NCBI RefSeq assembly: GCF_949628265.1
Contig: NC_088787.1
Span: 14,436,501-14,500,500, forward strand
Direction: 5' to 3'
Length of the DNA: 64,000 bases
DNA from: Cloeon dipterum
Taxonomy: Eukaryota > Arthropoda > Insecta > Ephemeroptera > Baetidae
The notes beneath the pieces are model-generated. The model saw only the letters and a program-made list of their open reading frames with translations. It ran no database searches and was not told the DNA's origin. Position numbers and translations under genes: made by a program. Positions within the stretch are counted from its first letter, which is position 1. Every line of letters starts with the position of its first letter. Of this stretch, positions 19,701 through 28,690 are shown in pieces.

Positions 19701-22700
19701 AATTACCTATTTGACTGCACAGTATTTAAGCGAAATTTATTTTATACTTGCTAAAATAGCATAGGTATATTGCAAATGCTGTTAAGCTTTTAGGAATGTC
19801 TGTTGACATGGCGACGTGGTTGTTATTACGTGTCTAGTAAGTGGTTTTACGAGCGCAGCAAACAGAAGGCAAAAACTCTTCTGCAGTGGTTAGATCATGC
19901 CATAAAAATTCTCTTAAACTTTGACCTAAGATTATGTCGGCACAGATCATTGCCAATTATTCTATTTGTGTGCGGCGCTAATATGGGAAAATGATTGAAG
20001 GTCAAAATTCATAGCTCATTCGTTTGGCATGAAGATCATGTTGTGACTTGTGTGCAAAGGTCGAAAGGCCCTATTAAAAGACATAATATCTTGTCTCTTG
20101 TTCAGTCTAGCCAACATTTTTTGCTTATTACAAAAGATATTATGAAAGTTTTGGTTTGGACTGTGTATCCATTAAAAGTCAACTCTTTCACCAGTTAGTT
20201 GGTTATAAATAAACGGTTGGTAGATACAAACTGTTTCCAAAATTTCCAGTTCCATCTTGTGGGCTCTCCTTAATTTGTTTTTAACGCCATTCTTAATCGG
20301 TTCAACTATCATTCTTTAAATGCCCGCGTGAACAGGTGAAATCGGAGTATTAAACTAAATTTATGTATTAATATTGTGTTTGCTTTATTCATCGCTTGCA
20401 TTCAATTCTCTTTTAACACATTTATATTTATTTTCTTTTAATTTAAAGACCCAATCACGTAAAATGTCAGAGATGGCAAAAAGTGGTTAGTTTAGTGACT
20501 CGAAATGCTCAAATTGCTCAACGGGCTGGGAGGCGCACCGGCGCCGACTCGCTACTTGCTGGTTTGCACCTTTCCAGCATGCGTGATTTGGCTTCACGGG
20601 ACGAATGTCTAGCGTTTCAATGCAGTCCTCGGTGCGGAGGCAAGTAGTGGCCCTTCGGTGGGCTGGGTCCCTGTGCGGCCTGGTGCACCCATGTTATCCG
20701 TTCGCGGTGTTATTGGGACCCGGGTTTCAGCATTCGTGCTAGTGCAGTGGGCGCCCTTCCCGGTCCTCGGACAGGGATAAAAAGAGCAAAAAAAAAAATG
20801 GTCAAAAAAATCACCAAACCATTGCGAATTTCACAAGTGTCGTCTAGTAAATTTTTAAAATAATCTCTTGTTCATCAAATTAATGACTGAATTGGATCGC
20901 AATGTGTGTTCCAGGTGATCACTGGTCCTGTAATGGTCGCCGGCGACCACAAGTTCCATCCAGAATGCTTCTGCTGTTCTTCGTGCAGTGGATTTATCGG
21001 GGATGGCGAGGCGTATGCCCTGGTGGAGCGGTCCAAACTGTACTGCGGCCAGTGCTACAAGCGGCAGATGCGGCCTCTGCTTGGCCGCCAGGCCAGCTCC
21101 AGCGGCCAGGCGGGCAAACCGCAGCACTCGATCAGACTCGTCGAAATTCCTCCCGTGCCTGTAAGTCAAGCCGGCCCAAGGACAGTCAAGCTGAGCCTCG
21201 AAGGGGATGGGGGTTTCCTCACTCCTCGTCCCATCGGCTGCCGGGGTCTGCGGATTTCTGAGTGAGTTTGGCAATTCTCTATTTTCGCATTTACGAAACG
21301 ATTCTCCTTAATACAAAACAGTCTGCTGTGTAATTGGGGATGCAAGATGGGGAAGCTTGCAGCTTCTTGGCTCCATTCCACAGTGACAGTCTGTTTTCAA
21401 GCAGCCAAAAGGAGGTATTGATTACCTGCTAGTCACATGTCCAACTTTTTTGTTTTTGGCTGCTTATTTGAACATGCTGTATTTATAGTTTTACCAGTGT
21501 TTTATTGTTAGTCATGAGAGTTGTTGTCAGCCTTGTCAGCAAATTGGATTACAAACACAAAGTGATCCCCCTATCATTAATTTATCCCCCGCTGCTACTT
21601 CCATGAAAACGGAAGACTTATAGTTGTAGGAAGCACACGCATCTGAGGAAAAACCATTCAGCTTATCAAGAGTAAAAATTAAGGTTTCTCCCCCAAAAGG
21701 ATCTTGGTGTCCTCACACCAAATAGTTGGCTTCTGCTGAAATCGGATTACACGTGCTAGGAAACCATTTAAATTATTATTACAGATCTGATATGCACGAC
21801 AGGATTTCCCAAAGCAATTTAATTAGTGCGATACTGCTATCTTCTGTTTCTTTCTTTCACATTGAGAACAAAGTCTGATTAAAGTTTGCTTATGATTTTA
21901 TGGCACGCTAATTCCGCTTGTGAATGACAAATTTATAGATTGTCGTCTGTCTAGAAAATTGCTATCAAATCGCTTTGCTACTGTAATGTAACCTCATCTT
22001 TAACAGAGCCCAACCAGAAAATCAATAATTGTGTACGTGCGAAACACCCTCTCGGGCTCACTACGCAGATTTGCCTATTGCGCCTAAATTTGCAATTGAG
22101 CTTTTGAGCTTCCATAATCGTTATTAGCTGTTTGTAAGCCATGATATGCTCAATAACTAAAAGGGTCGCTCCTCTTTAGGCTGGACATGAGCTCAGAATT
22201 GATGTCACTTCACATTGGGGATCGAATCCTTGAAGTGAATGGGGAGCCTGTTGCCGAACAACCGCTCGAGCACGTCGAGAACCTTCTACGCTATTCCAAC
22301 ACGGTTCTGCAGGTGAATAAATAATGGCTCTATTTTCCTTATTTTCTCTTCGTGCGGTTTATTTGTTTAACGCTCCAATTGGCAAACCTACAAATTTGTT
22401 TACAGCTCACAATCGAACACGATCCTGACGCCTTAAAGCCACGCCACCTGAAGGGAGCTAACAAGGCGGACGTGTCACCTCCCTACACGACACCGGCATC
22501 GCCGTCCAGCCCTAGCAAGGATAAAGAGAGGCTTTTTAAGAGACGGGACGAGGGGTACATCAGTGGGTCAAGATCTAGACAACTGCGGAGAAACGCCCAA
22601 CAGAACAAGGCTGGCTGCAACGCCTCCCCGGGGTGCAAAGAACGTTCGTCCTCCATGTCCAGATTACTAGACGGGTGAGTCTATGCTTAATTTATTTTTT

Positions 22701-28690: not shown

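Follow-up and report, generated by a model that had tools for sequence, protein, structure and literature searches.

A complete FGF gene on the same strand within intron 6 of the LIM kinase gene of the mayfly Cloeon dipterum

What does a complete fibroblast growth factor (FGF) gene do inside an intron of a LIM kinase (LIMK) gene when both are read from the same strand? The arrangement is found in a 64-kb window (the whole stretch of DNA analysed here, to which all positions refer) on contig C2 (37,456,129 bases) of the Cloeon dipterum genome (mayfly, Baetidae; 190 Mb in 10 contigs). A reading of this DNA from its letters, without database searches (the sequence-only reading), had proposed that a two-exon FGF gene is nested in LIMK intron 6. 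Our analysis bears this out: both genes are complete, their introns are GT-AG introns, their reading frames are open, and the proposed limits of intron 6 are exact (Table 1). The entire FGF coding region lies within this intron on the + strand. We consider it very probable that the intact, single-copy FGF gene is an independent transcription unit, that the nesting is probably mayfly-derived, and that it is tolerated. The arrangement, a developmental ligand gene inside that of a cytoskeletal kinase, is also compact: the next host exon follows the ligand's stop codon after only 80 nt.

Table 1. Coordinates of the LIMK and FGF features in the window.
Feature	Position	Strand	Description
LIMK coding exons 1–6	16748–16769, 17366–17465, 17567–17681, 20915–21261, 22180–22312, 22406–22674	+	Model identical to P0011; two LIM domains and PDZ (model, Pfam); end inside codon 329, which intron 6 splits
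LIMK intron 6	22675–26420	+	3746 bp; donor CGG/GTGAGT, acceptor TTTCAG/; phase 2
(CT)n, (GA)n and (CT)n repeats upstream of the FGF start codon	22875–22903, 22956–23033, 23855–23936	.	
Candidate FGF initiator TCAGTC	23770–23775	+	A+1 at 23772; not distinguishable from chance
FGF coding exon 1	24026–24466	+	147 codons; donor CAG/GTCAGC, phase 0; signal-peptide-like N terminus, KRSPDL basic site, start of FGF domain
FGF intron	24467–25854	+	1388 bp, GT-AG
FGF coding exon 2	25855–26340	+	Remainder of FGF domain; basic, Cys-containing C-terminal tail; stop codon 26338–26340
24-bp tandem duplication in the FGF tail	26274–26320	+	
AATAAA	26326–26331	+	In the final FGF codons; 6 nt separate it from the stop codon
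Gap from FGF stop codon to LIMK exon 7	26341–26420	+	80 nt
LIMK coding exons 7–13	26421–26598, 26985–27047, 27133–27390, 27532–27795, 27855–28009, 28080–28186, 28287–28690	+	Kinase domain and C-terminal tail (model, Pfam)

The host gene was rebuilt exon by exon, giving 13 coding exons (16748–28690), 12 GT-AG introns and an open frame of 804 amino acids (aa). Its translation is letter-for-letter identical to P0011 (‘LIM domain kinase 1 isoform X2 [Cloeon dipterum]’), a chromosome-level, full-length model that skips the FGF region and contains no FGF part. Pfam analysis of P0011 places two LIM stretches, a PDZ domain (residues 205–243) and a kinase domain (from residue 366) in one protein, the domain set of the LIM kinase family, and agrees with the earlier proposal that intron 6 divides the PDZ exons from the kinase exons. 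This intron is the longest of the 12. Because the best match elsewhere in the genome to a 106-aa piece of the kinase is only 42% identical, LIMK appears to be a single-copy gene. Downstream of LIMK and in the opposite orientation are UFD1 exons (31847–32623, − strand; UFD1_N1 and UFD1_N2 domains). An ORF at 16076–16459 (− strand), with no Pfam match, faces LIMK (start codon at 16748) head to head; we take it to resemble the start of CD2BP2, and the region between the two is possibly a shared promoter region. LIMK intron 3 carries a GC-rich high-copy repeat of ∼300 bp (20480–20790). Forty of its 2841 genomic candidates were scored, and all 40, one of them the repeat itself, match at 95–100%; it resembles a young dispersed element of about the size of a SINE.

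The nested gene encodes a product of 308 aa. The FGF family domain (PF00167) is matched at E = 3.7e-28 (98.4 bits vs a cut-off of 24) over residues 104–218, covering positions 1–115 of the 124 in the profile and thus nearly its full length, and solved FGF20, FGF9, FGF10 and FGF1 chains match the protein by sequence. The sequence-only reading had credited this FGF with a signal peptide and a full FGF signature. The leader is indeed present, with a hydrophobic core of 11 residues at positions 16–26, and the gene putatively encodes a secreted ligand. The signature is less than full: against a PROSITE-type pattern, one position deviates (GLP for GL[LIM]), and a loosened pattern matches; the related proteins P0003–P0006 match the unloosened pattern in full. 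Exon 1, including the N-terminal leader and KRSPDL, is kept in P0001 and P0002 (64% identity over about half of the query), and the FGF reading frame has therefore been maintained. Cleavage may occur at the KRSPDL basic site, before the FGF core. The tandem duplication in the tail repeats the motif KCEKGKC and is absent from those relatives that cover the FGF tail.

Each FGF exon has one DNA match in the 190-Mb genome, namely itself. There is a second FGF-domain locus (L002, G000:C1:15224998–15228243; ORF 1336–1812, − strand), which has weak matches to solved structures of FGF18 (1.8e-7), FGF10 (5.7e-6) and FGF8 (9.5e-6) and is perhaps of the FGF8/17/18 type. No third FGF-domain locus was found in the genome with PF00167 at E ≤ 0.001. 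For context, the Bnl, FGF1/2 and FGF8/17/18/24 groups of arthropod FGFs have been reviewed (PMC3420111), and the Cloeon FGF receptor breathless is reported to be down-regulated early in gill regeneration (PMC11597413).

The anatomy of the locus bears on how the two genes can be expressed. As the sequence-only reading claimed, transcription of full-length LIMK must pass through the FGF unit, since the latter is intronic and on the same strand. The main splice sites of the two genes do not fit each other: the phase 2 end of LIMK exon 6 would meet a phase 0 start of FGF exon 2, and the phase 0 end of FGF exon 1 would meet LIMK exon 7, which requires phase 2. Crossed splicing at these sites is therefore out of frame, which keeps the genes apart. 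At the downstream side, the 80-nt gap must contain the splice acceptor of LIMK exon 7, and also the FGF 3′ end if FGF ends inside the intron. Intron 6 has a GC content of 0.52, vs 0.36–0.39 in the other LIMK introns longer than 500 bp (introns 1, 3 and 4), and a CpG observed/expected ratio of 1.22, vs 0.61–0.96 in the same three. The short LIMK introns 7–9 (GC 0.44–0.47) reach CpG ratios of 1.42–1.82, and the high CpG ratio of intron 6 is therefore not peculiar to the FGF.

Several candidate signals could start or end an FGF transcript. The ‘own candidate initiator’ of the sequence-only reading is presumably the TCAGTC at 23770, the sole TCAGT in intron 6 ahead of the FGF start codon. A DPE-like AGACG lies near it, one base off the standard spacing. 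Across the window, 5 of 98 plus-strand TCAKTY sites have a DPE-like partner within one base, where the base rate predicts 4.3; the pair is thus no better than chance, and this part of the earlier proposal is weaker than it was put. The CT and GA repeats upstream of the start codon, which lie on either side of the presumed promoter, are possibly GAGA-type promoter elements. A bacterial promoter/terminator scan of 23700–24030, a method unsuited to insect DNA, returned nothing, and neither did Rfam (gathering threshold) and tRNA scans of the 64-kb window. At the 3′ end, the AATAAA at 26326 is the only one of ten poly(A) hexamer variants found in 25855–26430, where the chance of an AATAAA in any 60-nt stretch of such composition is ∼6.5%. 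As a candidate poly(A) signal it would, if used, place the end of the FGF mRNA inside the 80-nt gap and leave that mRNA almost without a 3′ UTR.

Another C. dipterum contig, of 1,239,537 bases (1.24 Mb), carries the LIMK N-terminal half, the FGF and the LIMK kinase, represented there by the gene models P0131 and P0072. P0131 consists of LIMK residues 1–329, lacks the kinase and finishes precisely at exon 6: the frame, continued through the exon 6 donor, gives GGG as codon 329 and then TGA. P0072 (761 aa) joins FGF residues 1–301 (exons 1–2) in frame to LIMK from exon 7 onwards, and Pfam finds both FGF and kinase domains in it. Relative to the window, the models differ at 2 of 301 residues in the shared FGF part and 2 of 329 in the LIMK N-terminal half, and the kinase half of P0072 also differs in its tail (where differences were not counted). 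These amino acid differences mean that the 1.24-Mb contig is no copy of the present assembly and is therefore separate evidence for the nesting. The contig and its two models presumably belong to the 2020 genome (Almudi et al., PMC7250882), whose annotation is described as Augustus models with RNA-seq transcripts and splice junctions as hints (PMC7250882). The junction in P0072 fits a donor at 26315 (CAA/GTGCCC). On a generic, hand-entered consensus matrix this donor scores 0.3, vs 4.0–9.8 for the 13 LIMK and FGF donors; in-frame GT sites of exon 2 further upstream score better (5.4 at 25895, 4.6 at 26276). It is the last in-frame GT before the FGF stop, the choice expected of a forced join, and P0072 is probably such a join, made by a predictor unable to nest genes. 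P0131 is either the matching forced split or a real, early-ending LIMK.

These data bear on several readings of the locus. That an assembly error has joined two loci, named in advance by the sequence-only reading as a possible refutation, found no support and has next to no chance of being right; we rejected it because the second C. dipterum contig carries both genes, with residues of its own. We give very little credence to the idea that the FGF is a dead relic or a retrocopy. Its C-terminal tail is shorter than those of Ephemera danica P0004 and of P0007–P0009, and the changed signature residue would suit decay, but the frame is open, the gene has a GT-AG intron and is single-copy, with no parent in the genome at the DNA level, and the near-identity of the two C. 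dipterum FGF sequences and the leader shared with P0001 and P0002 also argue against it. We rejected this reading too, given the uninterrupted frame, the presence of an intron and the lack of a second copy. It is very improbable that FGF exon 2 is spliced to LIMK exon 7 to make a real secreted FGF–LIMK-kinase chimera. P0072 is just such a protein, and its annotation, if that of 2020, had RNA-seq junction hints; the junction, however, uses a far poorer donor than the rest of the locus and passes over better sites, a signal peptide would route the kinase into the secretory pathway, and P0011 is assembled without any FGF part.

We also regard as unlikely, if less so, that transcription of the FGF interferes with its host, such that LIMK would end in intron 6 as a kinase-less LIM-LIM-PDZ protein where the FGF promoter is active and would be made in full where it is silent. 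Three points favour this reading: P0131 stops exactly at exon 6 in an annotation that, taken as that of 2020, used RNA-seq hints; the mouse pair H13/Mcts2 offers a reported precedent (PMC13309782); and within a gap of 80 nt the FGF 3′ end and the LIMK exon 7 acceptor would be likely to conflict. Against them, the same split of the host is what a predictor unable to nest genes would have to make, and P0131 is thus a possible artefact; the P0011 model, moreover, is full length. Intron 6 upstream of the FGF start codon has neither AATAAA nor ATTAAA, and GATAAA (23243, 23536 and 23743) is the only one of ten hexamer variants found there. Taken further, the FGF might act as a switch on its host, so that with the ligand on, LIMK would be cut in intron 6 and a kinase-less protein would replace the actin-regulating kinase. 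If so, cells making FGF would alter their own actin control through transcription alone. Such a regulated switch is possible on the evidence of one gene model, P0131, but we hold it to be improbable.

We return to an independent FGF unit, which is supported by the completeness of both genes, the identity of the LIMK model with P0011, the kept FGF frame, the out-of-frame result of crossed splicing and the second contig. What tells against it is the chance-level initiator, the ∼6.5% likelihood that an AATAAA falls in a 60-nt stretch by chance, and the models of the other contig, which give a chimera and no separate FGF. In the mechanism we propose, LIMK would be made by transcription through the FGF unit, with splicing of exon 6 to exon 7 removing the FGF within the intron. 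The FGF would be made from a promoter of its own upstream of 24026, where the DNA is GC-rich and carries CT/GA repeats, and its transcript would end at or near the AATAAA at 26326. Probably an FGF gene that already had its intron was relocated into LIMK in the mayfly lineage, a direction of change that we infer, and the nesting would be tolerated rather than selected for a joint function. Independent FGF expression with modest or tissue-limited interference is what we consider the most likely state.

The relationship of the two genes in other insects is consistent with a local origin. Unlike in Cloeon, the FGF and LIMK genes lie on different contigs in all three other insect species that have both proteins among the matches listed: Bacillus rossius (FGF on a contig of 31,528,091 bases, LIMK on one of 135,635,846 bases), Colletes gigas (6,097,117 and 10,476,024 bases) and Rhynocoris fuscipes (725,705 and 7,950,723 bases). 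These assignments come from 90%-identity clusters of 1–4 members, with one contig counted for each, and orthology of the FGFs is assumed. A fixed link between FGF and LIMK is therefore not supported, and the synteny comparison that the sequence-only reading had suggested lends nothing to its idea of a special functional tie between ligand and kinase. Three further species fall outside the comparison. Ephemera danica has an FGF (P0004, on a contig of 579,637 bases) and no LIMK among the best 120 of 1547 and the best 120 of 1328 matches; Apis florea has an FGF match and no LIMK match under this name among the matches listed; and Neocloeon triangulifer has a LIMK (P0012, on a contig of 8,372,279 bases) and no FGF under its name among the 10 matches listed. 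In the simplest reading the nesting probably arose in the line leading to Cloeon, loss elsewhere being also possible. The insect FGFs nearest in sequence are ‘fibroblast growth factor 9-like’ of B. rossius (P0003) and uncharacterized bee proteins (P0005 and P0006). The Cloeon FGF shares with them the domain, the conserved VATCL-LC, HYNTYSS and R-VQ stretches and the basic tail. A guess from the starts of database proteins is that the bee and hemipteran genes may be built differently from the Cloeon gene, which has an intron after GVLQ and an uninterrupted exon 2.

The FGF–LIMK arrangement is real, and apparently misled a published gene annotation. Public C. dipterum models are suggested to include a chimeric FGF-kinase and a truncated LIMK; P0072 is listed as a protein kinase, and both it and P0131 seem to be mis-modelled entries. 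A search for a C. dipterum FGF protein of 0.55–1.75 times 308 aa found none among the 10 matches listed, five of them with an organism name. The nested FGF may be missing from the newer C. dipterum protein set, in which case surveys of mayfly FGFs could miss it. C. dipterum is an insect model with published RNA-seq and ATAC-seq data (PMC7250882, PMC11491810), and at this locus interference between same-strand nested genes could be tested simply in an animal that is neither a mammal nor a fly.

We found no description of an FGF-in-LIMK pair in the open-licence literature, as judged by titles and abstracts. The words ‘FGF’ and ‘nested’ are absent from the main text of the C. dipterum papers PMC7250882 and PMC11491810, as is ‘nested’ from the arthropod FGF review PMC3420111. 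Gene nesting is in itself common; same-strand cases, though a minority, are well known. Of the simple nested pairs counted in human (296) and mouse (248), 76 and 55, respectively, are same-strand (PMC8467205), and five metazoan genomes are reported to have fewer same-strand overlaps than expected (PMC2330155). In a host gene, nesting can lead to intron retention, exonization and cryptic polyadenylation (PMC3192792). Raised expression divergence of nested genes was not found in mammals (PMC8467205), which counts against a general rule of interference between host and nested gene.

In our best reading, the Cloeon nesting is an ordinary same-strand nested gene, and any effect on either gene, be it interference or the shared enhancers that the sequence-only reading also raised, is hypothetical. 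The most instructive likeness is to the mouse pair H13/Mcts2. Mcts2 is an intronless retrogene on its host's strand; the nested Cloeon gene, unlike Mcts2, has an intron, is an FGF and belongs to an insect, and interference here is hypothetical. As in Cloeon, a protein gene lies inside a host intron, and Mcts2 is reported to have its own promoter (PMC13309782). H13/Mcts2 is described as an imprinted pair with a CpG-island promoter silenced by DNA methylation and with demonstrated interference, the nested transcription driving intronic polyadenylation of the host (PMC13309782). An early host end of that kind, upstream of the nested gene, would match the kinase-less P0131, and interference of the H13/Mcts2 type is plausible at FGF–LIMK. 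More broadly, as in the human and mouse same-strand pairs, the internal gene lies wholly in one host intron and in the same orientation; those pairs come from mammalian catalogues (PMC8467205, PMC2330155), whereas the Cloeon pair is an FGF within a LIMK in an insect.
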